In this document: positions 9,782 to 35,602 of the stretch, one piece after another
Position numbering within the stretch: the first letter of the stretch is position 1
How the letters are laid out: the number at the start of each line of letters is the position of its first letter
Source of the DNA: Elusimicrobia bacterium GWA2_69_24
Lineage (GTDB): Bacteria; Elusimicrobiota; Elusimicrobia; UBA1565
Length of the DNA stretch: 64,000 nucleotides
Assembly (NCBI GenBank): GCA_001799695.1
Contig: MGTY01000053.1
Coordinates: forward strand, 19,940-83,939
Direction of reading: 5' to 3'
Translations under genes and position numbers: made by a program
The notes under the pieces: generated by a model
The model's input: the letters and a program-made list of their open reading frames with translations, nothing else
The model's database searches: none
Told to the model about the DNA's origin: nothing

Positions 9782-10708
9782 ATGGCGGAACGCGTCAGAC
9801 TCGTCGTCGCCGACGATTCCCCGGACCTCCTGAGCCTGATGCAGGAAGCCCTGCAGTTGGAGGACTACGAGGTCCGGACCGCTCTCAACGGCCAGGAGGC
9901 TTTGGATCTCATCCACGCCTCCCCCCCCGACATCGTCATCCTGGACCTCTGCATGCCGATCAAGGACGGCTTCGCGGTGTGCCGGGAGCTGAAGGCCGAC
10001 CCGGCCTACCACCACCTCCCCATCGTCATCGTTTCCGCCGCCGGCGCGATGGACCAGAAGATCCTGGGGATGGATTCCGGTGCGGACGACTTCATCACCA
10101 AGCCGATCCGGATCCCCGAGCTTCTGGCGCGGATCCGGATGATCCTGCGGCGCACGCGGCAGGGCCTGGACGCGAACCCCCTCACGCACCTGCCGGGGAA
10201 CCTGTCGATCCAGACCCGCATCACTGAGGCGATCGCGGCGGGCGGCCCCCTGGCCGTGCTCTACATCGACCTCAACGACTTCAAGGCCTACAACGACGCC
10301 TACGGCTATGACGCGGGGGACCGGGTGATCCACGCCACGGGCCGCCTGCTCATCGAAGCGGCCCGCCGGAGCGGCTGCTTCGTCGGCCACATCGGGGGCG
10401 ACGACTTCATCGCCGTCACGGTCCCGGACCGCATGGAGACCCTGAGTCGGGAGCTCATCGCGGAGTTCGCCGCCCTGGCCCCTTCCTTTTATAGAGAAGA
10501 GGACCGTCGCCGGGGGAAGATCCTCTCACAGGACCGCAAGGGGAACACCGTCGAATTCTCCCTGCTCTCCATCGCCATCGGGGTCTGCCACAACGCCCTC
10601 AAACCGCTGACCTCCTACGCCCAGGTCAGCGAGATCGGCGCGGAGCTCAAGAAGTTCGCCAAGCGCAGCCCCGGCTCGCACTACGAGCTGGACCGCCGCA
10701 AGCAGTAG
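9782..10708 (+). CDS. Response regulator with GGDEF-type output domain
   Basis: This 308-residue protein has a receiver domain (residues 5-120) with acidic pair D11-D12, phospho-acceptor D55 and K107. A GGDEF-type domain (about 130-300) follows. Substrate-region motifs (L-T-H-L-P-G-N and Y-I-D-L-N-D-F-K) are intact. The signature reads GGDDF (205-209), a variant also known in some diguanylate cyclase-like proteins, and no RxxD inhibitory site precedes it. It may make c-di-GMP on phosphorylation or act only as a sensor of nucleotide. It is transcribed divergently from the atp operon, which encodes a PilZ protein, a potential c-di-GMP receptor. Confidence 0.88.
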   Translation: MAERVRLVVADDSPDLLSLMQEALQLEDYEVRTALNGQEALDLIHASPPDIVILDLCMPIKDGFAVCRELKADPAYHHLPIVIVSAAGAMDQKILGMDSGADDFITKPIRIPELLARIRMILRRTRQGLDANPLTHLPGNLSIQTRITEAIAAGGPLAVLYIDLNDFKAYNDAYGYDAGDRVIHATGRLLIEAARRSGCFVGHIGGDDFIAVTVPDRMETLSRELIAEFAALAPSFYREEDRRRGKILSQDRKGNTVEFSLLSIAIGVCHNALKPLTSYAQVSEIGAELKKFAKRSPGSHYELDRRKQ

Positions 10709-10725: not shown

Positions 10726-12036
10726 TCAGGCAGGGACGCCGATGAGGTCGTACTCCTCGGCGGCCGTGACCTTGATGTCGGCGAAGCCGCCGATGCGCAG
10801 GGAACTCCGGCGGGCGTCCACCAGCACTTCGTTGTCCACCTCGGGGGAGTCGTGCTCGGTCCGCCCGATGAAGGTCCCGCCCTCCTTCGCGTCGATGAGC
10901 ACCTTCAGGGTCTTGCCCACCTTGGCCTGGTTGAGGGAAAGGGAGATCCCCCGCTGCACGGCCATCACGGCCTCGCAGCGCCGCTTCTTCTCCCGCGCCG
11001 GGACGTCGTCGGGGAGGCGGTAGGCCCGGGTGTTCTCCTCGTGCGAATAGGAGAAGATGCCCAGACGTTCGAAACGCATCCGCGACACCCAGTCGACCAT
11101 CTCCTCGTGCTCGGCCCGGGTCTCGCCGGGGTAGCCCGCGATCAGGGTGGTGCGCAGAGCCACGCCCGGCACCCGGTCCCGGATGGCGGCGATCAGCGCC
11201 TCGGTCTTGGCCCGGGTCGTGCCGCGCCGCATCGACGCGAGGATGCGGTCGCTCACATGCTGGACGGGCAGGTCCAGGTATTTGCAGATGTTGGCGCGCG
11301 CGCGCATGACGTCGAGCACGTCCCTCGGGAACCCGGCCGGGAAGGCGTAGTGCACCCGGATCCAGTCGATCCCCGGCAGGTCGGAGAGGGCTTTGAGGAG
11401 GTCGGCCAAGCGACGCTTCCCGTACAGGTCCAGGCCGTAGTAGGTGGAGTCCTGGGCGATAAGGACGAGCTCGCGCACCCCCCCGGCGGCCAGGCGCGCG
11501 GCCTCCGCGGCCAGCTCCGGTATGGACCGCGACACGTGCCGGCCGCGGATGCGCGGGATGGCGCAGAAAGAGCAGGGCCGGTCGCAGCCCTCGGAGATCT
11601 TGAGATAGGCGTAGTGCCGCGGCGTGGCGAGGAGGCGCTCGCCCACCAGTTCGCGTCTAAAATCGGCCCCCAGCTCCTTAAGGAGGGCGGGCAGGTCCTT
11701 GGTGCCGAAGAAGGCGTCGACTTCCGGGATGTCCGCGGCCAGCTCGGCCTTGTAGCGCTCCGACAGACAGCCCGTGACGATGAGCTTGTCCACCAGCCCG
11801 CGCTTCTTGGCCTCGCCGAAGCGCAGGATGGCGTCGATCGACTCCTTCTTGGCCGCTTCGATGAAGCCGCAGGTATTGACGATCACCACGGACGCGTCCG
11901 TGCAGTCGGTCTCATGCTCGACCGTGAAGCGGTTCTCGCGCAGCTGCGCCATGAGGACCTCGGAGTCGACGAGGTTCTTCGAGCAGCCCAGCGTGACGAC
12001 GTGGACCTTGTTCTTCTTCAGGGTCTTGGTCTTCAG
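10726..12036 (-). CDS. rimO: Ribosomal protein S12 methylthiotransferase RimO
   Basis: This radical-SAM enzyme adds a methylthio group to an aspartate of ribosomal protein S12. It has an N-terminal UPF0004 domain (V-T-L-G-C-S-K-N-L-V-D-S-E, plus N-T-C-G-F-I and G-C-L-S), the radical-SAM cluster motif C-D-R-P-C-S-F-C (CxxxCxxC), and a C-terminal TRAM domain. L-G-C-S-K-N-L-V-D-S-E favours RimO over MiaB. No in-frame ATG, GTG or TTG exists near the start: the nearest candidates are CTG at 12036 (436 residues) or 12021 (431 residues), and none of the usual three occurs until deep inside the motB-like gene. It is the last gene of the motor operon, 4 bases after motB. Confidence 0.9.
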   Translation of the reverse strand: MKTKTLKKNKVHVVTLGCSKNLVDSEVLMAQLRENRFTVEHETDCTDASVVIVNTCGFIEAAKKESIDAILRFGEAKKRGLVDKLIVTGCLSERYKAELAADIPEVDAFFGTKDLPALLKELGADFRRELVGERLLATPRHYAYLKISEGCDRPCSFCAIPRIRGRHVSRSIPELAAEAARLAAGGVRELVLIAQDSTYYGLDLYGKRRLADLLKALSDLPGIDWIRVHYAFPAGFPRDVLDVMRARANICKYLDLPVQHVSDRILASMRRGTTRAKTEALIAAIRDRVPGVALRTTLIAGYPGETRAEHEEMVDWVSRMRFERLGIFSYSHEENTRAYRLPDDVPAREKKRRCEAVMAVQRGISLSLNQAKVGKTLKVLIDAKEGGTFIGRTEHDSPEVDNEVLVDARRSSLRIGGFADIKVTAAEEYDLIGVPA

Positions 12037-12040
12037 ATGC

Positions 12041-12742
12041 TCACTCGCCTTCTTCGCGCAAGAGGCTGATCTCGATGCGGCGGTTCTGGGCGCGGCCTTC
12101 GGGGGTCCGGTTGTCGGCGACCGGCCGGTACTCGCCGTAGCCGACGCCGGAGAGGCGCTGGGGCTCCACGCCGGCCGCCTGCAGCTGTCCCAGGACGGTG
12201 TAGGCGCGGGCCATGGAGAGCTCCCAGTTGGACTTGTAGCTCCCGCCGCGGATGGGGCGGTCGTCGGTGTGCCCCTCGACCCGGATCTGGTTCTTGCGGC
12301 TGACCACCCCCGAGACCAGCCGCTCCAGCATGGGGACCGCATCGGGCTTCAGCTCCGCCTTGCCCGAGTCGAAGAGCACTCCCTCGCCCAGGTTCAGCGT
12401 GATGCGCTTCTCGCCGACGATGACGCTGGCGTTGGAGCCGAACTCCCCCTTCTCCACGTCCTCCTGCAGCTTCTCGGAGAAGAGCTTATTCAGGTCCCGC
12501 TCCTTGGCCTTCTCGGCCATCTCCTTGGGGATCTCCCCCCCGAAGACCCGGATGACCTTGGCGTAGGCTTCCTCCACCTTCATCTTGTTGGGGTCCTTGA
12601 CCTGCTTGGACAGGGTCCAGCTCAGCATGAGGAGGAAGAGGATCATGAGGTAGCTCATCATGTCCCCGTAGACGATGGCCCAGAGGGCGTTGCGGTTCAG
12701 CTGCCCCTCGAGCTCCTCCTTGCGGAATCGGTAGATGGCCAT
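12041..12742 (-). CDS. MotB-like stator protein with OmpA domain
   Basis: This 233-residue protein has one membrane helix at about residues 18-40 (N-A-L-W-A-I-V-Y-G-D-M-M-S-Y-L-M). D27 stands where MotB has its proton-carrying aspartate. A linker of about 60 residues leads to a periplasmic OmpA-like peptidoglycan-binding domain (residues about 105-230) with V-E-G-H-T-D-D-R-P, N-W-E-L-S-M-A-R-A and N-R-R-I-E-I. Together with the adjacent MotA this should make a membrane-anchored ion-driven stator. It lies 5 bases after motA. No flagellar structural genes other than the FliF/FliG fusion occur nearby. Confidence 0.9.
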   Translation of the reverse strand: MAIYRFRKEELEGQLNRNALWAIVYGDMMSYLMILFLLMLSWTLSKQVKDPNKMKVEEAYAKVIRVFGGEIPKEMAEKAKERDLNKLFSEKLQEDVEKGEFGSNASVIVGEKRITLNLGEGVLFDSGKAELKPDAVPMLERLVSGVVSRKNQIRVEGHTDDRPIRGGSYKSNWELSMARAYTVLGQLQAAGVEPQRLSGVGYGEYRPVADNRTPEGRAQNRRIEISLLREEGE

Positions 12743-12747
12743 CGTCC

Positions 12748-13485
12748 CTATTTGAACGCCATGAGCTTGCGCTCCAGCACGAGCGGGACGGTCCCCTGCA
12801 TCATCCCTATGACGCCTTCGATCACCATGGCCTTCATCTTGATCTGCTCCCACAGGCGCATGCGCAGCTTGCCGGCCACCGGGATGCAGACCAGGTTCGC
12901 GAACATGATGCCGTAGAACGCCGAGGTGATGGCGATGGCCATGGAGCTCCCGACCATGTCCGGGTTGGCGATGTTTTTGAGCACCTGGATGATGCCGAGC
13001 AGGGTGCCGATCAGCCCGAACATCGGCGAGACGACGCCGGCCGTCCGGATGACGTTGATCACCTCGTTGGCGCGGTCCACCCCGTTATTGACCTCGGTCT
13101 CCAGGGTGTGCCGTACGAACTCGGGGTTGTTGTATTCGAGGGCCGTGGTGGCCGCGGCCGCCAGGAACCCTCCCGCGACGTTGGGGTCCGCGTTGCGCAG
13201 GGACCCCAGTCCGTTGCGCTGGACCATCTCCGCCAGGCGGGTGATGAGCGGGACCACCTCTTGCGCGTTGTCGTAGGGGTCGCGGCGGAAGAGGGAGGCC
13301 ATCGCGATCAAGGTCTCGCGCACGTACTGCATGGGAGTGTTGACGAGCATGGCCGCCGCCGTCCCGCCGAAGACGATGAGCAGGCCGTGCAGGTTCAGGA
13401 AGACGCGCGAAACCTCTCCCGAAGCCATGCCCACCACCATCAACGCGATGATGCCCGCCGTCCCGATCATCGTTGCCAGGTCCAT
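12748..13485 (-). CDS. MotA-like stator channel protein
   Basis: This 245-residue protein is of the MotA/TolQ/ExbB family and has four membrane helices: about 5-22, 28-48, 145-168 and 180-200. The two helices after the cytoplasmic domain carry S-P-M-F-G-L-I-G-T and C-I-P-V-A-G-K-L, with the two prolines conserved in MotA. The cytoplasmic loop includes Q-R-N-G-L-G-S-L; the Arg of the FliG-contact region is kept but the partner Glu is not obvious. Length and the long first loop fit MotA (PomA/LafT type) better than ExbB or TolQ. The start codon is directly adjacent to the stop of the coiled-coil gene. Confidence 0.88.
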   Translation of the reverse strand: MDLATMIGTAGIIALMVVGMASGEVSRVFLNLHGLLIVFGGTAAAMLVNTPMQYVRETLIAMASLFRRDPYDNAQEVVPLITRLAEMVQRNGLGSLRNADPNVAGGFLAAAATTALEYNNPEFVRHTLETEVNNGVDRANEVINVIRTAGVVSPMFGLIGTLLGIIQVLKNIANPDMVGSSMAIAITSAFYGIMFANLVCIPVAGKLRMRLWEQIKMKAMVIEGVIGMMQGTVPLVLERKLMAFK

Positions 13486-14595
13486 TTATCCCTTCCCTTT
13501 TCCCTTGTTGCGTTCCACCCAGGCTTGGACGACGGCCATCTGCTTGTCGATCTTCTCCTGCAGGGCTTCCATGCGCTGGCGGCACTCCGCCGCGCGCGCC
13601 CGCAGCAGGGGCGCGGTCCGGGAGTCGGGCGGCTCGTCGCGCACGGACGCCGCGGCCCGCCCCAGTTCCTCGGCCAGGGCGTCCCTCTGCTTGATGGAAT
13701 CTACCATAGTCTCCAGAGCCGCCTCCACCAGGAGCTCCGGCCCGCCCGCCTTCTGCCACTGCCGCCGCGTCTGCTGGAGCGTGGCGAGGAGGGTCTCCTC
13801 CCAGTGGCGCCGCGCCTCGCGCTCCCGGTCCCGCTCCCGATGGGCCTCTTCCAGGCGCCGCTCCAGGTCCGCGACGCGGCCCAGGACGATGGAAAGCTCG
13901 GGGAGCGAAGCCGGACCGGCGCCCTCCGGGGGAGGCGCGGGCGGGACCGGTCCGGACGGGTCCGCCGGCGCGGGCTCGGCGGGAGAGGCCTCCAGCCGGG
14001 CCGTCTGCTCCTGGATGCGCCGCTGGAGCTCCGCGCGGCCCTCGTCCGTCTCCAGGCAGCGCAGGATTTCCTCGGCCGGCACCATACGCAGCTCGGCGAG
14101 ACTAAGCCGGGACTCCAGTTCCCGGAGCCGGGCCTGCGAGGCGGAAAGCTGCTGGCGGAGCAGGCCGTCATATGAAGACGCCCGCTGCTGCTCCCGGATG
14201 TTCCGGAACAGGTCCTCCACCTCGGACTGGGCCTTGCGCTGGGCCTCCTCCCTTTCCTTAAGAAGGAGGTTCGCCCGCAGAGCCTCCTGCTGGGCGCTCT
14301 CCAGCCGCTTCTCCATCAGATCGATGCGCGTCTGCAGGAAGATCGCCAGCTCCGTGGGAGCCTGGGGCGGCTCCGGCGGCGGCGGCGCGGGGGGCGCGCC
14401 GTCGTTGGGAGCCATCTCCATCGGAGGCGGCGCCGCCATCTCGCCCAGCCTGCGCTCCAACTCCTCGAGGCGCTGGCGCAGCGGCGACAACGCCTCCTCG
14501 GATGCCGCGGCGGAGAGAGCCGCCTCGGACGGAGGGGCTTCCTCGGGCGGGGCTTCGCCGCGCAATGCCGCCAGGAGTCCGTCTACATTGGCCAT
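13486..14595 (-). CDS. Coiled-coil protein of the motor operon
   Basis: This 369-residue protein has no signal peptide or membrane helix, so it is probably cytoplasmic. It alternates Pro/Ala-rich linkers (about residues 55-82 and 195-225) with long charged heptad stretches (about 38-53, 84-190, 232-290, 305-365). The C-terminus is basic (N-K-G-K-G-K-G). I recognise no family. It sits 3 bases after the FliG-domain fusion and directly before motA with no gap, so it is surely co-expressed with them. A role as a linker, clutch or scaffold of the motor complex is a guess from its place and shape. Confidence 0.75.
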   Translation of the reverse strand: MANVDGLLAALRGEAPPEEAPPSEAALSAAASEEALSPLRQRLEELERRLGEMAAPPPMEMAPNDGAPPAPPPPEPPQAPTELAIFLQTRIDLMEKRLESAQQEALRANLLLKEREEAQRKAQSEVEDLFRNIREQQRASSYDGLLRQQLSASQARLRELESRLSLAELRMVPAEEILRCLETDEGRAELQRRIQEQTARLEASPAEPAPADPSGPVPPAPPPEGAGPASLPELSIVLGRVADLERRLEEAHRERDREREARRHWEETLLATLQQTRRQWQKAGGPELLVEAALETMVDSIKQRDALAEELGRAAASVRDEPPDSRTAPLLRARAAECRQRMEALQEKIDKQMAVVQAWVERNKGKGKG

Positions 14596-14598
14596 GGT

Positions 14599-17064
14599 CT
14601 AGGCCGGCTTGAGCGCCGTCTCCCCGGCCGCAGCCGACTCGGCCTCCATCTCCACCAGCGCCTGCCGGTGCATGGCGGGGTTCACGACGCGCCCTTCCTT
14701 GATGAGCTTCATGACGATCTGCACGACCCGCTCTTGCGCCTCCTCCCCGACCGCCTCCACCGCACGCACGCCGCGCATCATCTGCTCGATGATGGCCCAA
14801 GTCTTGGGCAGCATCTGGCTCTGCACGGCCTCGCGCATGGCGTCGTCGGAATGGAACAGCGCGGTCGCCCAGTCCTCCAGCGGCACGGAGCCGAGCGCCA
14901 CGGACCAGTCCCGCATATCCAGGTATTGGAGGTCCTCGAAGAGCAGGATGCGGCTGCGGGCCAGGCGCGCCAGGGCCGGGTCGCGCTGCTCCAGGATCTT
15001 GAGCAGCTCCCGCTTGTGCTTGACGTCGGTCTGGTCGATGAGCTCCAGGAGGCTGCGGTGGCCGCCGACCGCGCTCTCCAGGCGCCGCTCGAGCTCCTCC
15101 TTGATGGTGGAGACCACGTCGGCCTCCACGAAACGGATGTTCCCCAGATGGAACACCACCTCGCTGTGCAGGGAGGTGGGGAGCAAGGACAGGAAGCGCT
15201 GGCGGGTCTCCGGCTTGAGGTGCGCGACCACCAGCGCGAAATTGGCCGGCTCCTGGCCGCGCAGGATCTCCATGAGGGTCTCGCACTGCTCCGGCTTCAC
15301 CTCGAAATAGATCTTGTTGCCGGGCTCGGCCTCATCGGCGGCCTTCTTCTCCTCTTCCCCCTCCTCTCCCGCCTTCCCCTCCTCCCCCTTCGGCCCAAAA
15401 TCCATCTGGAGCTGGTGCGCCTGGGCCTGGGCCATGGAATCCATGGCCTCGGCCAGCTTGAGAAAGCACAGGGCCACCACCACCAAGGTGATCAGCGTCA
15501 TGAGGGCGATGAGCGTATACTTGAACAGCAGCCCGATCGCCTCCGGCTGATACCAGATCGTTTTCCACGCCGGAGCGAACGGTACGCGGACCTGGTCGAA
15601 GACATCCCCGCGCTCGCGATCCAGCTGCAGGATGTCTTGGACGATCTTGCCGATAGCGTTGGCCTCCTTCTCCGCGATCGAATCGTCGAGAAGCAGGGTC
15701 ACCGCGAGGCGCTTGACGAAAGCGGATGGGAAGGAGTTCTGCCGCTCGTAGGACTTGTCCCCCCCGAATCCCGCCAGGGGCTCGGGCGACGGTATCCCGG
15801 GCAGGAGTTCGCTGCGTCCCGCCCCCTCGGCGCCGACGTTCTGCCAGAGGAAGAGCGACGCGGGGTCTTCCCCCGCCTTCCCCATGCCGCCTTTCACCTC
15901 GAACTTCTCCACGCGCGTGAAATCGAGCGTCGCGTCCACCACCACGCGGTAGCGGCTCGGCCCCAGGAGCCGCAGGAGCACCGATTCGGCCCGGGTCTCC
16001 AGGGCCTTCTCGAAGGTCGCCTTTTCTTCGAGCGGCAGGCCCTCCGCCGCCCGCGCCGTAGTCGCCGCGCCGGCGAGGCCGAGGGCGAGCAGGGCCGCGG
16101 CCAGGGCCTTGCGCGCCGGCATCTTGGAGGGCTTGAGGGGGATGCGGCACCAGAAGGTGGAGCCCTTCCCCAGGCCCGCGGAATCGACCCCGATGGCGCC
16201 CTCGTGCCCGCGGACGATCTCCTGCGCGATGGAGAGCCCCAGGCCCCAGCCCTTCTTCTTGTTCTTCATGTCCTGGAAGCGGGACTGGTAGAATTTCTCG
16301 AAGATGAGCCCGCGCTCCGAGGGATGGATCCCGGGGCCGTCGTCCTTGACGCTGAAGGTGATGTAGCGCCCCAGGGGACGGACGATCAGCTCCACCGTCC
16401 CCCCCTTCGGAGTGAACTTGACCGCATTGTTGAGGAAATTCATGAGGACGCGCACCAGGCGGAACCGGTCTCCCACGATGGTCACGGCCGGCACGTTCTC
16501 CGGGTAGACGAAGTTGATGCCCGCAGTCTTGGCCACGACCCCGATCGACGGACCCACGTCCCGGATCATGGACCCCAGTTCGAAGGGGACCTTCTCCAGG
16601 CGCAGCTTGCCCGCCTCGATGACGGCCAGGTCGGTCAGGTCGCTCATGAGGTTGTTGATCTGGTCCGTCCCGCGCACGATGTAGTCCACGTACTTCTTCT
16701 GCGTCCCTTCCAGCTCCTGGCGGCTCAGCATCTCCCCGAAGCCCTTGATGGAGGCTAGGGGGGTGCGCATGTCGTGGACCGCCATGGAGAGGAATTTCGA
16801 CTTCATGCCGTTCAGCCGGTCCAGTTCCGCGTTCGACGACTGCAGCTTCTGCGTCATCTTCTCCAGGTCCTGACTGCGCCGGAACACCTGGCTCTGCGCC
16901 GTCGCGAGCTTGGCCATGAAGTCCTGGATCTCGCCCTGGTCCCGCCGGCGCCGCTGCGAATACTTGCCGAACTGGAAGAAGCTGGAGAACTGGCTGACCA
17001 CCAGCATGGACGCCGCCAGGAACAGGAACAGGACCGGGACCAGGACCACGATCACGACTTCCAT
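14599..17064 (-). CDS. Histidine kinase - FliF C-terminal region - FliG fusion
   Basis: This 821-residue protein has, in order: a membrane helix (3-25); a coiled linker (40-85); a HisKA domain with H97 in V-H-D-M-R-T-P-L; a HATPase domain with N-box L-N-N-A-V-K-F and G-boxes D-D-G-P-G-I (241-246) and G-W-G-L-G-L (272-277). A second hydrophobic segment (318-338) follows. A periplasmic region (345-500) has FliF C-terminal hallmarks: L-L-G-P-S-R-Y-R-V-V-V, L-P-G-I-P, a V-K-R-L-A-V-T-L-L-L-D strand and R-G-D-V-F-D-Q-V-R-V-P-F. Then come a helix (511-536), an acidic linker, and FliG middle and C-terminal domains (590-795). FliF domains RBM1 and RBM2 are absent. M315 begins a signal-like stretch, so the last 507 residues might also be made separately. 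Confidence 0.85.
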   Translation of the reverse strand: MEVVIVVLVPVLFLFLAASMLVVSQFSSFFQFGKYSQRRRRDQGEIQDFMAKLATAQSQVFRRSQDLEKMTQKLQSSNAELDRLNGMKSKFLSMAVHDMRTPLASIKGFGEMLSRQELEGTQKKYVDYIVRGTDQINNLMSDLTDLAVIEAGKLRLEKVPFELGSMIRDVGPSIGVVAKTAGINFVYPENVPAVTIVGDRFRLVRVLMNFLNNAVKFTPKGGTVELIVRPLGRYITFSVKDDGPGIHPSERGLIFEKFYQSRFQDMKNKKKGWGLGLSIAQEIVRGHEGAIGVDSAGLGKGSTFWCRIPLKPSKMPARKALAAALLALGLAGAATTARAAEGLPLEEKATFEKALETRAESVLLRLLGPSRYRVVVDATLDFTRVEKFEVKGGMGKAGEDPASLFLWQNVGAEGAGRSELLPGIPSPEPLAGFGGDKSYERQNSFPSAFVKRLAVTLLLDDSIAEKEANAIGKIVQDILQLDRERGDVFDQVRVPFAPAWKTIWYQPEAIGLLFKYTLIALMTLITLVVVALCFLKLAEAMDSMAQAQAHQLQMDFGPKGEEGKAGEEGEEEKKAADEAEPGNKIYFEVKPEQCETLMEILRGQEPANFALVVAHLKPETRQRFLSLLPTSLHSEVVFHLGNIRFVEADVVSTIKEELERRLESAVGGHRSLLELIDQTDVKHKRELLKILEQRDPALARLARSRILLFEDLQYLDMRDWSVALGSVPLEDWATALFHSDDAMREAVQSQMLPKTWAIIEQMMRGVRAVEAVGEEAQERVVQIVMKLIKEGRVVNPAMHRQALVEMEAESAAAGETALKPA

Positions 17065-17115
17065 GGCGTTCTCGGTTCCGTCTCGGGTGTAGTCTGGTTC
17101 TTTTTCATTTCTGAA

Positions 17116-18693
17116 TCATTGCGCTGCCAGCCCCTGGGCGTCCATGAAGCGGCGCAGCTTCTCGTCCGCGGGGTTGAGTTCCACCGCCTTGCGGTACGCC
17201 GTGCCGGCGCGGGCCCGGTCGCCCAGGGCGAAATAGGCCGACCCGAGCCGGGTCCAGGCCAGCGCGTTGTTGGGGTCCACCCACAGCGCCTCGCGCAGGG
17301 CCTCCGCCGCCTGGGCGAACTGCCTCCGGTACACCTCGTCGACCGCCGCCTTCATCTTGAAGGCCACCATGCGCTCGGGCGGCAGTATCTCGTCTCTCTT
17401 CTTCTCCCGTCCGGTCAGCTCGCTGACCGCGTCCAGGAGGCGCCGGTAGGCCTGGATGCGGGGCTCCGCGCCCAGCGCCACGTGGGACAGGAGCGCGGCC
17501 CGGTCGTCCTCGTTGCCGATGTAGGCCTCGACCGCCTGATAGGCGATGAAGGCGGCGGGGGTGTTCTGCTGGAAGGATTCCTGGTCCTCGGGGTGCGCGT
17601 CCAGGTCCATGGCCTTGGCGAGCCGGCGCAGGCGCTCCGCCCGCGGCTTCCACTGGCCTTCCCCGACCTTCGGGTCTATGCCCAGGGCGGTGTCGAGGTC
17701 CTTGGCCGCGGCCAGATAGTCCCGCTTCTTGAGTCCCGCCAGGGCGTTGTTGAGGTATTCTTGCGCGTAGAACTGCATCTTGGGGGGCTTCTTGCCTTCC
17801 GCGACCCGCTGGGACCCGAAGCGATAGCCCACCGAGTACCGCTGCGACATGCCGAGGGTCGGGTGGTTCAGCAGCGCCACGTCGAAGAAATACTTGTCGC
17901 GGAAGCGGAACCCGCCGCCGAAGCAGAGCGCCTGGTCGGTCATCCCGACGCGCAGTGCCGTGATGCCCCAGGCGTATTCGGTCCCGATGCGGAACTCGCC
18001 CCCGTTGGAGACGTCCATGGCCAAGGACAGGGGCCCCGCGACCCGGTACGAGGCGCCGGCGCGGACCAGGAGCTTGAGCTTGTCGTCGGTCCCGCCCTGC
18101 GCGATGCTGAACACGTTCTGGGCCACGAGCCCCAGGAGCAGCCGGTCCCCCACCCACGGCCCGGCCTGGAACCCGACGTCGGCGCCGTAGAGCTGGTCCT
18201 TGGCTCCGCCGAGGCTGCGCTGCAGCAGCTTGAATTTCACACCGGCCGACAGGCTGGGATGGAAGACGCCGCGCCAGCCATGCGCCACGCCCAGAGCCAT
18301 CTCCGAGTAGTCGAAGCCGCCGGTGGGCTGGTTGTACTCGTCGCGCCCCTCGCCGCCCCCCACGTTGAGCCGGATGAACTCCGCGCCCCACCCGCCGGCG
18401 CGCTTGCGCTTGTTCTGCGCGTAGCCGATGTAGTCGTAGGTGGCCCCCTCGAAGAGCTGCGCCCGCATGAGGGAGATCTCGCGGCCGGGCAGGAGACCCA
18501 GGCCCGCCGGGTTGTAGTAGACGGAACTCACGTCCTGGACCACCGCAGTCTGCGCGCTGCCCATACCCAGGCCCCGGGCTCCGGCTCCGAAGGTGAAGAG
18601 CTCCCCGGGCGTCCCGCCGACCCCGGCGGCGCGCGCCGCCGCGGCCAGAGGCCACAGCAGGATCACGCCCCAAAGGACGCGCGCGGTTCGCAC
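17116..18693 (-). CDS. PorV/PorQ-like outer-membrane barrel with C-terminal TPRs
   Basis: This 525-residue protein has a signal peptide (about residues 1-23). It opens with G-A-G-A-R-G-L-G-M-G-S-A-Q-T-A and S-S-V-Y-Y-N-P-A-G-L-G, the signature of the PorV/PorQ/UPF0164 barrels. PorV is the outer-membrane partner of type IX secretion in Bacteroidota. A beta-barrel of alternating strands runs to about residue 330. A helical region and at least two TPR units follow (A-L-W-V-D-P-N-N-A-L-A-W and A-V-E-L-N-P-A-D). The GTG start is preferred over a TTG 30 bases upstream because it gives a proper signal peptide and lies 5 bases after a -10 box. It is the first gene of the motor operon, 51 bases ahead of the kinase fusion. 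Confidence 0.82.
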   Translation of the reverse strand: MRTARVLWGVILLWPLAAAARAAGVGGTPGELFTFGAGARGLGMGSAQTAVVQDVSSVYYNPAGLGLLPGREISLMRAQLFEGATYDYIGYAQNKRKRAGGWGAEFIRLNVGGGEGRDEYNQPTGGFDYSEMALGVAHGWRGVFHPSLSAGVKFKLLQRSLGGAKDQLYGADVGFQAGPWVGDRLLLGLVAQNVFSIAQGGTDDKLKLLVRAGASYRVAGPLSLAMDVSNGGEFRIGTEYAWGITALRVGMTDQALCFGGGFRFRDKYFFDVALLNHPTLGMSQRYSVGYRFGSQRVAEGKKPPKMQFYAQEYLNNALAGLKKRDYLAAAKDLDTALGIDPKVGEGQWKPRAERLRRLAKAMDLDAHPEDQESFQQNTPAAFIAYQAVEAYIGNEDDRAALLSHVALGAEPRIQAYRRLLDAVSELTGREKKRDEILPPERMVAFKMKAAVDEVYRRQFAQAAEALREALWVDPNNALAWTRLGSAYFALGDRARAGTAYRKAVELNPADEKLRRFMDAQGLAAQ

Positions 18694-18951: not shown

Positions 18952-21900
18952 CTAGTGGATGACGCCGATCTTCAGGACCGATTTGGAGCCGTTGGCCTCG
19001 ATGACGGCGAGGTAGATGCCTTTGGAGACCTTCTGGCCGGAGGCGTCCGTCCCGTCCCACTGCACGGTGTTGGAGCCCGGCGACCCGCCGGCCCCGCCGG
19101 GCGGAAAGGACAGCTGTTTGATGGAGCGGCCGAACACGCTGAAGATCTTGATGGACACGTCGGCGCTGGCGTTGAGGACGTAGTGGATGTTGACGGACCT
19201 CTGCCGGGAATCGAACGGGTTCGGATAGGCGCTGGCGTCGCTGATGCCGCTCCCCGGCAGAGCCCCAAGCTGGATCCGGCTGACGACGCCCTCGGGACTC
19301 AGCACCCCCGCTCCGGAGACGGAACGGATGCGCAGGGTCAGCGTCCCCGCCGGCAGCCCGGTGGCCTGGTAGGAGTTGCCCTGGACCAGGTCGTCGGCGG
19401 TCAGCGCGGCGGCCCGCAGGAAGCTCTCCCCGCGCGCCCCGGCCGGCGCCGCCGCGAACGCCGCCGGGTCGCTGCGCACCTTGGTCCGCGCGTTGTACCA
19501 GAGGGGACTGGAACCCAGCTGGTATTCGATCAGGTAGCCCTTGATGCCCGAGACGCCGCCCGGCAGCGTGGTCCAGGTGAGCAGGACCGCGTTGTCCCCG
19601 CTGGTCACCGTCAGCGCCGGAGGCAGCGGCTTCTGGAAGTCCATGAGCACCCCGTGCGTGGACACTCCCAGTGGGCTCTCGAACACGGGGCTCGCGGGTC
19701 CGGTACTCGCCTGCACCCTCATCGTCACGAAATAGGTGGCCCCATTCAAAAGGGGAAAGCCCGAGGCCCGCACCGCGGTCTGATCCGCCGCGACCGCGGT
19801 CCAGCCCAGGATGTCCGTCGCGCCGGGCGCGGTCCCGACCGCGTAGAGCGCGCCGGTGATCGTCCCGGTCCCGACGCTCGACGCCCAGGAGAACGGCAGG
19901 TATTCGAAATTGCTGCTGAAGTAGCCCTCGGCCAGACTCACGACCGGCTGCGAGGGCGTGCGCGCGTCCAGGATCTTCGGCGCGGAGGTGTTGAAAGGCA
20001 GGTTCGCCTCCGGCGCGGCGTCCGGAGTCGCGATGGTGAAGTCGGTCTGCTGGAGGAGCAGGCGGACATCGGCGCCCACCGTGGCGTCCACCTTGGGCTC
20101 GACCGTGATGAAGTAGGTCTGCGTGGCGACCGCGACGGTCTGGGCCGAGGAGAAGGCGATGGACGCCTGGCTCCCGCTGAAAGCCGCGCTCCCCACCAGC
20201 AGGTCGGGGTCCGTGAAGGAGCCCGAGCCGTCCAGGTCGCGGTAGATCCCCACCGTCGTGATCTCGTTGGTACCCAGCGTCCCGGCCTGCTGGACGCGGA
20301 GCTGGGTCCAGAGCGTCTTGTTGCGCGAGGCGCGGGCCTCCAGCTTCACCAGGGCCGCCTGCGCGCCCTGGTTGATGCCGTTGACCGCCAGGTCCGTCGG
20401 CAGGACCAGCAGCCGCTCGGCGAGCTTCTTCATCGAGGTGTTCACGTCGGACAGGATGGGGTAGCCTTGATTGACCCCGAAGTTGGGGCTCACCAGGCTG
20501 AACGCGGCCGTGGATTCGAGCACCACGGCCAGGGTCCGGCCCGGCTCGGCGAAGGGCGCCACGTCGACGGTGAGCAGGAAGCGCTCCTGCTGGGTGCCGA
20601 TCTCCTGCACCGGATTGAGGCTCACCACCGCGACCCCGCCCAGGAAGGTGTTGAGGCCCGAGGTGATCTTCGTGTCGGTGCCCGCGTCGACGGTCCCGTT
20701 CTTGTTGACGTCCTCCCACACGTTGACGGCGGCGATGTCGGAATCCGTCGCTGTCCCGCTCGAGCGCACCGTGATGGCGTTCCAGGTCAGGGCGTACTGC
20801 GTGGTCTGCAGGCTCAGGCTCAGCATGACCTGGTCGGTGGCGGCCTGGGTCAGTTCCCCGGGCGCCTGGTTCGTGCCCACGACGAACAGCCCGGTGCGGG
20901 TCGCCTGGATCGCGCTGTTGAGCGACTGCAGGGGGAAGTTGAGCGTGGAGACGGTGTTGGGGGTCTCGATCTTGAAGTCTCCGGCCGCGGGGATGCGCGC
21001 GCCGACGGTGTCCCCCGTCCCCGCCGTGGTCTTGATATCGTAGGTCAGGAAGTAGGTCTGGGTCGAAGCCGTCACCGTCTGCGTGGAGAAGCGCAGCTGG
21101 GCCGCGCCCCCGACGAAGGTGGCGGTGCTCAGCCGGCGGTCGACGGCCACGGTGAGCAGCCCGTCCCCGTCCTCGTCCCGGTACAGCTTGACGAAGGGCA
21201 CGTCCGCGTCCGCGCCGGCCCCCGAGCGCGTCACCTTCAGCTCCGACCACGCCCCGCTATGCCCCGACATCCAGGCCCGCAGGGTCAGCATGGGGACGTT
21301 GGCGTCGCCCTGCGTGACCGTCGCGGGAGCCGAATCCCCCCAGACCACGTACATGGTCTCGGGCGGAGGGTTGATGGCCAGCGCCCCCGACACGAAGCTG
21401 GTGTTCGTGTTCAGCGTGTTGGGCGACTTGACCGTGAAGAAACCCGAGGTGTTGGCCCGCGCCACGATGGCCTTCCCGGGAGCCGCGCTCGTGCTCAGGT
21501 CCACCACGAGGAAGAAGCGCTTCTCGTTGGGGGCGGGGGACAGCACCGGATTGGTGCTGAAAGTCAGCAGCACGCTGCTGGCCCCGTTGTCCCCGAAGCG
21601 GTTGGTGGTCGAGGTGACCAGTTGGTACTGCGCCAGGTTGGACGAGTCCCAGCTCCCCGCCCCGTTGATGTCGTAATAGAGCTTCACGGACGCCACGTCC
21701 GCGTCCGCCGCGCTCCCGGTCTGATCCACGCGCAGGCTGAGCCACTCCGCGTCGGACACATCGGTCTGCAGCACCAGGCTCATCAGGCCGACGTATTGGG
21801 CGCCCGGTTCCGCGCCCAGGGCCGGCACGATGCTGGCCGTGGTCACGGTCACGGTGTTGGCGAACTGGGTGATGTCCACGGGTCCGCCCTTCAGGGGCCA

Positions 21901-33600: not shown

Positions 33601-33975
33601 TCACTTCAGGATGCGGCGCTCCAGGACCTTGACCCGCGCGAGGAGCATCTTGCTGTCGAAGGGCTTGGTCAGGTAGTCGTCCGCCCCCCGCTCGTACCCC
33701 GAGACCTGGTCTTCCACGAGCGCCCGCACGGTCAGCATCAGGATGGGCATGCTCTGGCAGCGCGGGGTCTCCCGGACCTTGCGAGTCAGCTCCATCCCGT
33801 CCATGTTGGGCATGTTGAGGTCCAGCACGGCCATGTCGACCTTCTTCTTCTGGATGAACTCCCAGGCCTCAACCCCGTCCTTGGCGCGCACGACGGAATA
33901 GCCGCCCTGCGTCAGGATCTCGGTCACCAGCTCCCGGAACATGTCGTCGTCGTCCGCCACCAGGATAGTCCTCAT
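33601..33975 (-). CDS. Single-domain response regulator
   Basis: This 124-residue CheY-like receiver has an intact acidic cluster (D8-D10), phospho-acceptor D52, T82 in the L-T-V-R segment, and K104 in Y-L-T-K-P-F. There is no output domain. It is the third gene of an operon of three regulators, 17 bases after the winged-helix regulator. It lies directly upstream of the giant exported protein gene. It may relay phosphate to the other proteins. Confidence 0.93.
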   Translation of the reverse strand: MRTILVADDDDMFRELVTEILTQGGYSVVRAKDGVEAWEFIQKKKVDMAVLDLNMPNMDGMELTRKVRETPRCQSMPILMLTVRALVEDQVSGYERGADDYLTKPFDSKMLLARVKVLERRILK

Positions 33976-33992: not shown

Positions 33993-34709
33993 TTACTTGT
34001 CCTGAAAAACGTAGCCGACCCCGTAGATGGTCCGGATCATGCCGTTATAACGGCCCAGCTTCCGGCGCAGCGATTCGATGTGCTTGTCCACGGTCCCCGA
34101 CTGCACGTCGCCGCAGGTGGCCTTCCAAACGGTTTCCAGGATGAAATGCCGCTCCAGGACCTTCCCCGGCTGCTCCAGGAACAGGGTCAGGAACTGGAAC
34201 TCCGTCCGGGTGAGGCCGGGCAGGGCGACCCATTGCCCGCGCGTGCCCTTCACCCAGACCTGCTGCCGGGAGCGGTCCAGCTTGACCTCGCCCCCCGGGG
34301 ATTTCAAGACGTCGAGCGCCGCCGCCAGGCTGGGCAGGATCCGCCGCAGATGGGTCTTGAGCTTGGCGATCAGCAGGCGGTCGTCCGTCGTGTTGACGAA
34401 ATAGTCGTCGGCTCCCGCCTCCAGGCCCTCGATCACCCGGTCCGGAGCGAGCCCCGGATCGGAGGTCATCACCACGGAGACCCCGGGGGCCTGGGCCCGT
34501 ATCCTGCGGATGGCTTCGGAGGTCCGCCCCCGCAGCAGTTCCCAGTCCACGAGCGCGATGCCGAGCCGGGCCTGGGAGGAGTCCACGAGCAGGGCCTCCG
34601 CGCTGGTGACGCCCGAGACCTGCCAGCCCTCCCGCAACAGAAGGGTCTCCCAACGCTTGATGCGCTGGATATCGGCGGTTGCGATCCAGAAAGTGAGCTG
34701 TCCCATCAC
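33993..34709 (-). CDS. OmpR-type winged-helix regulator with degenerate receiver
   Basis: This 238-residue protein has a receiver-like domain (1-115) in which D55 is present. The acidic pair near residue 11 is replaced (A-T-A-D) and the usual lysine near 106 is missing (F-V-N-T-T), so phosphorylation is doubtful. The C-terminal domain (about 140-236) is a typical Trans_reg_C winged helix: L-T-R-T-E-F-Q-F-L, W-K-A-T, V-D-K-H-I-E-S-L-R-R-K-L and I-R-T-I-Y-G-V-G-Y-V-F. Such proteins bind tandem direct repeats next to -35 boxes, as found before the giant gene and the motor operon. The ATG overlaps the preceding gene by 4 bases. Confidence 0.9.
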   Translation of the reverse strand: MMGQLTFWIATADIQRIKRWETLLLREGWQVSGVTSAEALLVDSSQARLGIALVDWELLRGRTSEAIRRIRAQAPGVSVVMTSDPGLAPDRVIEGLEAGADDYFVNTTDDRLLIAKLKTHLRRILPSLAAALDVLKSPGGEVKLDRSRQQVWVKGTRGQWVALPGLTRTEFQFLTLFLEQPGKVLERHFILETVWKATCGDVQSGTVDKHIESLRRKLGRYNGMIRTIYGVGYVFQDK

Positions 34710-35602
34710 ATTAGAGACTTATCCATCCCGGTCAGTTCGCGGATGTATTGCTGCAGGAGCCGCCAGTCCACGGGCTTGTGCAGGAGGCGCACGAACGGAT
34801 CCGTCTTGGGGACGATCTTTCGGGCCTCCTGCGGAGGCATGCCGGTCACGAAGATCACCGGGAGGTTCTTGCGGACCTGGTTGGAGGCGCGCAGCTTCTT
34901 GAGGGCATCCACCCCCGTTCCGAAGCCGGGCATCTCGATATCCGAGATGATCAAGGACAGGCGCATCCCTTCCGCCTGGATCACGGACTGGGCCGCGTCC
35001 TCGGCGCAGGTGACGCGATAGCCGGCGCTCTCCAGCTTGGCCACCAGCATGTCCCGGATGAGCGGGTCGTCGTCGACGATCAGGATGTACGTCCTCCCCG
35101 CGGGGGGCTTGGACACCGGACCCTCCATCTGGGAGAGGAGCGACGGCGCGACGACGGAGCCCGCGGGAGGCGGGGGCCCCCCCGCAGAGGGCGGCGGCGC
35201 TCCGGGCGCCGGGCGCGGCGGCTGGGTCGCCGGGCCGGGCGGGACGGAGCCCGGCAGCAGGGTCCGCGGTCCCTGCCCGGGCGGCGGCGCCCCGGGCGCC
35301 GGGCGCGGCGGCTGGGTCGCCGGGCCGGGCGGGACGGAGCCCGGCAGCAGGGTCCGCGGTCCCTGCCCGGGCGGCGGCGCTCCGGGCGCCGGGCGCGGCG
35401 GCTGGGTCGCCGGCTGGGCAGCGGGTCCCGTACCGGGGAGGGGCTGGCCCGGCACCGTACCGGGGCTCTTCACGATCTGGATCGCCTGGTCCACGACCGC
35501 CGCCGGAACCCCCTGCTTGACCAGCTGCTCGCGCAGGGCCGCGACCGGGAACTTGGCCTGGTATTGGCGGATATAGGCGACGACCTGCTGCAAGTTAGGC
35601 AT
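34706..35602 (-). CDS. Response regulator with Pro-rich repeat linker
   Basis: This 298-residue protein has three parts. An N-terminal helical domain (1-50) contains V-A-Y-I-R-Q-Y, V-A-A-L-R-E-Q-L-V-K-Q-G and A-V-V-D-Q-A-I-Q, a motif seen at the N-terminus of other bacterial proteins that sense or recruit. A Pro/Gly-rich linker (about 55-160) follows, made of a 30-residue unit repeated almost perfectly. A C-terminal receiver (about 168-295) has V-D-D-D-P, phospho-Asp in I-I-S-D-I-E-M-P-G and the lysine in L-H-K-P-V. It heads the three-regulator operon. The receiver at the C-terminus suggests that phosphorylation controls the N-terminal helices. Confidence 0.85.
   Translation of the reverse strand: MPNLQQVVAYIRQYQAKFPVAALREQLVKQGVPAAVVDQAIQIVKSPGTVPGQPLPGTGPAAQPATQPPRPAPGAPPPGQGPRTLLPGSVPPGPATQPPRPAPGAPPPGQGPRTLLPGSVPPGPATQPPRPAPGAPPPSAGGPPPPAGSVVAPSLLSQMEGPVSKPPAGRTYILIVDDDPLIRDMLVAKLESAGYRVTCAEDAAQSVIQAEGMRLSLIISDIEMPGFGTGVDALKKLRASNQVRKNLPVIFVTGMPPQEARKIVPKTDPFVRLLHKPVDWRLLQQYIRELTGMDKSLM
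35191..35413. repeat. 90-bp tandem repeat inside the response regulator gene
   Basis: Two full 90-bp units (35191-35280 and 35281-35370) differ at only one base (35201 T, 35291 C). A third copy breaks off at about 35413. Each unit encodes 30 residues rich in Pro, Gly and Ala. Near identity at DNA level shows recent duplication and predicts length variation between strains. Confidence 0.9.

Follow-up and report, generated by a model that had tools for sequence, protein, structure and literature searches.

The 64,000-nucleotide stretch of DNA analyzed here, hereafter the window, covers positions 19,940 to 83,939 of contig MGTY01000053.1 (C53:19940-83939) in the metagenome-assembled genome of Elusimicrobia bacterium GWA2_69_24 (4.2 Mb, 132 contigs, 85% complete), which belongs to a group of uncultured soil and groundwater bacteria in the phylum Elusimicrobiota. 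The minus strand of the window carries genes for a giant secreted protein, a PorV-like barrel, a histidine kinase fused to FliF- and FliG-type domains, a coiled-coil protein and MotA- and MotB-type stator subunits (Table 1), and this locus very probably encodes a non-flagellar rotary motor. Domains were called with Pfam and NCBIfam profiles, structural matches were sought against the PDB and with Foldseek, the locus was compared with 97 relatives of the same class, and FliG_C was counted in a sample of 295 genomes from across the phylum.

Table 1. Genes of the motor locus and its flanks in the window
Feature	Coordinates	Strand	Evidence and remarks
Protein with C-terminal receiver domain	34706..35602	-	Response_reg 7e-17; 4-nt overlap with next gene; possible transcription-unit member
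OmpR-type regulator	33993..34709	-	Trans_reg_C 2.9e-18; degenerate receiver, Response_reg 2.1e-6, below cut-off
Stand-alone CheY-like receiver	33601..33975	-	Response_reg 1.3e-31; 45 nt upstream of the giant gene
Giant secreted surface protein, 4867 aa	18952..33555	-	FG-GAP, Laminin_G_3 and fn3/Ig domains; C-terminal T9SS-type/FlgD-Ig-like domain (T9SS, type IX secretion system)
PorV/PorQ-like outer-membrane barrel with C-terminal TPR domain	17116..18693	-	PorV_fam E=1.7e-18, below curated cut-off
Rotor fusion, kinase-FliF-FliG	14599..17064	-	HisKA, HATPase_c, YscJ_FliF_C, FliG_M and FliG_C profiles
Cytoplasmic coiled-coil protein	13486..14595	-	Between rotor and MotA genes; no Pfam/NCBIfam family match
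MotA-type stator subunit, flagellar subtype	12748..13485	-	PF01618 1.8e-21
MotB-type stator subunit	12041..12742	-	Plug/transmembrane helix with Asp32 equivalent; OmpA peptidoglycan-binding domain
RimO (ribosomal protein S12 methylthiotransferase)	10726..12045	-	TIGR01125 467 bits; outside the motor system

An earlier note, made from the window sequence without database searches, had read the rotor protein as a kinase-FliF-FliG fusion, and the profiles bear this out, with matches to HisKA (9e-18), HATPase_c (4e-25), YscJ_FliF_C (4.6e-5; 24.4 bits, just above the cut-off of 23.8), FliG_M (5.5e-10) and FliG_C (7.8e-15), the last two both above the Pfam cut-off and in the expected order. The N-terminal part comprises a transmembrane (TM) helix at residues 3-21, the histidine kinase at 87-311 and a TM or signal-like helix at about 317-335, which falls below threshold in the window copy and is detected in most orthologues. 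The C-terminal part comprises a periplasmic FliF RBM3-type domain (~345-500), a TM helix (517-535) and cytoplasmic FliG_M (595-665) and FliG_C (691-793) domains. The ~150 periplasmic residues match the C-terminal domain of FliF, and their predicted secondary structure, helix-strand-insert-strand-helix-strand, fits that of an RBM carrying an insertion. A search of solved structures with the FliFG part returned FliG (8.8e-18) and FliF ring proteins (4e-4). Structure models were built with four sequences each; that of the rotor fusion was poor (predicted local distance difference test, pLDDT, of 57), and solely ranked fold matches were taken from it, in which Foldseek placed FliG-M/C first (2.8e-10), followed by FliF S-ring/RBM3 structures (8.9e-7). 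Judging from these comparisons, the rotor appears to keep just the S-ring/RBM3-type domain and the last membrane helix of FliF, followed by FliG-M/C. The H, N and G boxes of the kinase are intact in all window-type rows tested. In one relative (G094), two neighbouring genes encode the kinase (314 aa) and FliFG (500 aa) separately.

MotA aligns over its full length with flagellar MotA/PomA structures (PDB MotA 5e-34), and profiles found both the plug/TM segment and the OmpA domain of MotB, so the MotA-like channel and the MotB-like aspartate and OmpA domain named in the earlier note are well founded. The equivalents of MotA Pro173 and Pro222 are invariant in the alignment, and the equivalent of MotB Asp32 is present in all aligned rows except one, which is gapped there. 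In MotA, all window-type rows have A180 replaced by Thr and T209 by Ala, a combination that allows no clear call between H+ and Na+. At the FliG torque positions of window-type rows, R281 is mostly K, D288/D289 are mostly Q/M and R297 is mostly T/S. Ion conduction and torque generation by the window MotA/MotB are predicted from the sequence.

The genome of the window contains five FliG_C loci and five MotA-family loci. A profile search of this genome, at 85% completeness, found no FlhA, no FliM and no N-terminal region of FliF (RBM1/2, PF01514), which extends genome-wide, for these three, the earlier observation that no export gene or FliM lies in the window; no flagellar gene set was found elsewhere, and a complete flagellum encoded outside the window was rejected on these grounds. 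The same three are missing from a relative rated 100% complete (G001), which has 6 FliG loci. Across the class, FliG_C was found in 161 places in 73 of the 97 relatives, and FlhA in 3, FliM in 1 and the FliF N-terminus in 2 of the 97; among the 73 FliG-positive relatives, 71 are without FlhA, 73 without FliM and 72 without the FliF N-terminus. Hook, rod and filament genes were not seen in the motor loci, and no separate genome-wide search for them was made. The control genomes were positive in the FlhA search, and the ordinary flagellar clusters of two relatives in family f9 (L069 and L092 in G061; L089 in G081) were recovered, indicating that flagellar-gene searches work within this class. 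The FliG frame of G081 is only 248 aa long and gave no FliG_C match. In addition, contig G005:C59 (L071) bears FlhA in a genome without matches to FliM or the FliF N-terminus, and this contig is possibly a contamination. Family f12 (genomes of 1.4-1.7 Mb), probably a gut lineage, has no FliG_C anywhere within the 97-genome set and at most one MotA/ExbB protein.

The earlier note described a six-gene operon with intergenic spacings of 0-51 nt. The spacings are correct, and the PorV-like barrel, kinase-FliF-FliG fusion, coiled coil, MotA and MotB stand by sequence; the sixth gene is rimO, which was dropped from the unit because its product is a housekeeping enzyme by its TIGR01125 score and adjoins motor genes in no relative. 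The conserved operon runs on beyond the PorV side, into the giant-protein gene and the response-regulator genes. Conservation of gene order in relatives, on which the reading had been made to depend in advance, was found: the order giant protein, PorV-TPR, kinase-FliFG, coiled coil, MotA, MotB is kept in 15 genomes of four families. With this synteny kept and no flagellar set found elsewhere in the genome, the earlier proposal of a reduced, non-flagellar, ion-driven envelope machine survives. The coiled-coil protein falls in a homology cluster at 14 of the 15 window-type loci, and in 12 loci, the window among them, the gene immediately upstream of PorV-TPR encodes a homologue of the giant protein; a thirteenth shows a 70-residue end of one. 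A promoter and terminator scan of the operon gave no signal above chance. OmpR-type homologues directly follow MotB in L029, L030, L031, L034, L035 and L048, and in L046 such a homologue stands beside a CheY-like gene that itself adjoins MotB; CheY-like orthologues lie beside motor genes in L045 and L046 (173-196 bits). Judged by these positions, the OmpR-type regulator is a conserved partner of the window-type motor. A response regulator with a GGDEF domain (window 9782-10708, plus strand) is convergent with rimO beside the motor operon, and a 336-bit homologue occurs near the motor in L029.

The window locus represents one of at least four FliG subtypes, each with its own stators. The A type, the commonest among the FliG-positive loci sampled, comprises PorV-TPR, FliG-TPR, a long coiled coil, FlbD, MotA and MotB; the B type comprises FliFG, MotA, two MotB and a TPR protein; the C type is that of the window. 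Subtypes A, B and D carry no fused kinase, and kinase-FliFG adjacency was also found at the E-type loci L063, L064 and L068. The FliG tree was built from 53 sampled non-flagellar FliGs and the flagellar FliGs of E. coli, T. maritima, A. aeolicus and G061, with no independent root; it separates the flagellar FliGs from all 53 others with branch support of 99/98, and supports A at 100/97, B at 96/81 and C more weakly at 81/35. In the MotA tree, groups A, B and C each occupy one side of a branch (bootstrap 98-100) and match the FliG subtypes. The flagellar MotAs are scattered in the same tree and the E. coli MotA branch is very long, and for these reasons no origin of the non-flagellar stators from flagellar ones is claimed. 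The ratio of nonsynonymous to synonymous substitution rates (dN/dS) among close window-type orthologues is 0.05-0.21; the motor genes are under purifying selection and their function is retained. The window genome itself also carries an A-type paralogue (G000:C42; L006:4442-13128), where FlbD adjoins MotA/MotB and FliG carries fused TPRs, in a gene order common to most A-type loci fetched across the class, as well as a B-type paralogue (G000:C104; L009:14822-19291) with a tandem MotB pair after MotA, as likewise seen in L047, L059, L062 and L070.

The operon is headed by the gene for a giant protein whose tail is T9SS-like, which makes the connection with surface proteins firmer than the earlier note had recognized. 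This tail is predicted to form a seven-stranded sandwich (pLDDT mostly 84-92) whose fold matches include PorU, PorZ and the translocon-bound T9SS substrate NucA, as well as FlgD, and T9SS C-terminal domains have been described with a seven-stranded sandwich fold (PMC10994853). The TIGR04183 T9SS sorting domain scores above its cut-off in a giant-protein orthologue (L065, G094), and the window protein itself has only a weak Por_Secre_tail match. Similarly, the PorV-like barrel of the earlier note holds as a significant family match with an added TPR domain, but its score stays below the curated cut-off, which a PorV paralogue in the same genome (L006:11491-13128) passes with 102 vs 90 bits. SprA-like proteins were found in 89 of the 97 genomes with significant scores below the curated cut-off, their complete open reading frames being mostly about 1750-2050 aa. 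At the SprA loci L080, L081, L082 and L088, the SprA-like proteins are 1750-1930 aa where complete, no gld operon is recognisable, and in three of the four a short comF-like gene, recognised by eye, stands beside the SprA-like protein. T9SS-like tails are more numerous in FliG-positive than in FliG-negative genomes (median 12 vs 6 per genome; 12 vs 8 without f12), in counts uncorrected for phylogeny, which supports a link between motor and surface module. Moreover, G043:C198, G032:C88 and G048:C10 contain open frames of 11,000-12,500 aa that end in FlgD_ig/T9SS-like tails.

In Bacteroidota, GldLM is the motor that pulls out PorV-substrate complexes and propels adhesins (PMC10994853), and the CheY-like PorX binds GldL (PMC10951265). 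By analogy of the operon parts with that T9SS motor system, the locus as a whole is, on balance, best explained as a rotary motor of flagellar parts that drives a PorV/giant-adhesin module, with the attached kinase reading or controlling the state of the motor through two-component signalling. MotA5MotB2 stators would sit in the inner membrane, where MotB would anchor to peptidoglycan and H+ or Na+ would be conducted. The rotor would be a ring of the fused RBM3-TM-FliG-M/C protein, with FliM, the N-terminal region of FliF and the FlhA export gate absent. Ion flow would turn MotA against FliG_C, and thereby the RBM3 ring in the periplasm, which may in turn drive the outer-membrane side, namely the TPR-armed PorV-like barrel and the T9SS-tailed giant adhesin. 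The work done might be the release of adhesin from its carrier or translocon, or the movement of adhesin along the surface (gliding), as for GldLM in Bacteroidota. The kinase on every rotor subunit, together with the CheY-like and OmpR-like regulators, might adjust gene expression to the state or load of the motor, or might regulate the motor, as PorY/PorX act on the T9SS motor. Rotor and stator are assigned by sequence comparison; rotation, outer-membrane coupling and the direction of signalling are what we infer. A coupling of the motor to the PorV/giant-adhesin module is somewhat favored, a coupling of the fused kinase to motor state stands at about an even chance, and gliding in particular is unlikely to be what the motor drives.

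Several points weigh against this explanation. The E. coli torque charges (MotA R90/E98; FliG R281, D288, D289, R297) are largely lost in the window type, a K at 281 being the sole one retained, and with Ala at the T209 equivalent the ion path differs too. The modeled fold of the giant-protein tail also resembles FlgD-Ig, and the physical coupling of the ring to PorV/TPR is read from gene order alone. The correlation between T9SS-like tails and FliG is uncorrected for phylogeny. Family f12 keeps SprA although it has neither FliG nor more than one MotA/ExbB protein, so SprA function does not depend on this motor. Lastly, the GldM profile matched none of the 97 genomes and was silent in the control genomes as well, so this negative is not usable as proof of absence.

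Among the alternatives, a motor for secretion only survives best, and we regard it as rather improbable. The complex would replace GldLM in an Elusimicrobial type IX-like system and power export of the giant protein while the cells stay unmoved, which would suit the widespread SprA-like translocon, the PorV-like carriers, the silent GldM profile and the presence of PorV and its cargo in the motor operon; in Bacteroidota, energy is needed to pull the PorV-cargo complex out of SprA (PMC10994853). However, f12 keeps SprA without any FliG, the GldM result is uninformative, and several motor paralogues with different partners occur per genome. Less probable still is that the stator-rotor pair is mainly a mechanosensor of load or surface contact, in which resistance at the ring alters the kinase, which signals through the OmpR- and CheY-like regulators to transcription of the adhesin operon. 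The fusion of each rotor subunit to a kinase that looks active and lacks a separate sensor domain, the conserved regulatory neighbours and the E-type kinase-FliFG pairs are consistent with such a role, but paralogous types A, B and D lack the fused kinase, so sensing is not the general function. It is very improbable that the protein is a sensor kinase with borrowed domains, its FliF/FliG-like parts forming a static membrane scaffold and MotAB acting elsewhere without rotation; the loss of the E. coli-type torque charges would fit, but rotor types A, B and C each have MotA/MotB genes of the matching subtype next to them, genomes with more MotA copies tend to have more FliG copies (rho 0.67) and the stator keeps its ion-conduction residues. 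That the genes are remnants of a lost flagellum is scarcely credible: FlbD lies beside MotA in the A-type paralogue and two relatives keep true flagellar clusters, but the genes are under strong purifying selection, have multiplied (up to 8 FliG_C matches in a genome), have gained new conserved fusions and partners, and occur, by FliG_C, in 120 of the 295 genomes across the phylum.

The proposed adhesin-driving motor shares with the bacterial flagellar motor a homologous stator with conserved Asp and Pro residues, the S-ring/RBM3 domain and FliG-M/C, and differs from it in lacking FliF RBM1/2, FliM and FlhA, in its torque charges, in having a single kinase-fused rotor protein, and in an operon that carries PorV and a giant adhesin. 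With the T9SS/gliding motor of Bacteroidota it would share an ion-driven rotary motor in the inner membrane, a PorV-type carrier, T9SS-tailed adhesins and two-component control, although the motor here is MotAB-FliG and that of the T9SS is GldLM. Myxococcus AglRQS and the TolQR, ExbBD and ZorAB 5:2 motors likewise use a MotA/MotB-superfamily motor for a non-flagellar task; to our knowledge, none of them has a FliG/FliF rotor ring. Experimental FliF-FliG fusions (PDB 8z4d/8z4g) also join the two in one polypeptide, but are reportedly engineered and part of a real flagellum, whereas the window fusion is natural, RBM3-only and kinase-fused. Flagellar genes have been stated to be clearly absent from Elusimicrobia (PMC7031533), and a 2025 survey found filament-less rotor proteins in 11% of non-motile species and raised a possible other function without naming one (PMC12199754). 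Open-access full text held no account of FliG-based motors in Elusimicrobiota; FliG and Elusimicrobiota occurred together only in an unrelated gut study that mentions each once. All parts belong to known families; what appears undescribed in the open-access literature is the way they are combined, the fused rotor with RBM3 only and the placing of a kinase on the rotor.

FliG has so far been treated as a rotor protein specific to the flagellum, and the Elusimicrobiota offer a concrete, testable candidate exception, in which conserved, duplicated and selected operons pair a flagellar stator and rotor with outer-membrane carriers, giant adhesins and two-component regulators. The kinase fused to the rotor and the giant surface protein adjoining it suggest that this "half a flagellar motor" performs an independent task at the cell surface. 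Tentatively, and with some doubt, it might represent a separate class of rotary machine spanning the envelope. In this reading, MotAB would drive an RBM3-FliG ring, present in several duplicated subtypes in each cell, to move or export giant adhesins with T9SS tails, and the window type would bear a kinase on each rotor subunit that feeds motor state into two-component signalling. The finding bears on the evolution or dismantling of the flagellum, on the power source of type IX-like secretion outside Bacteroidota and, because the rotor protein itself includes the kinase, on mechanosensing. If true, the Elusimicrobiota would possess a working half motor and a second rotary-motor route to powering type IX-like secretion or gliding.

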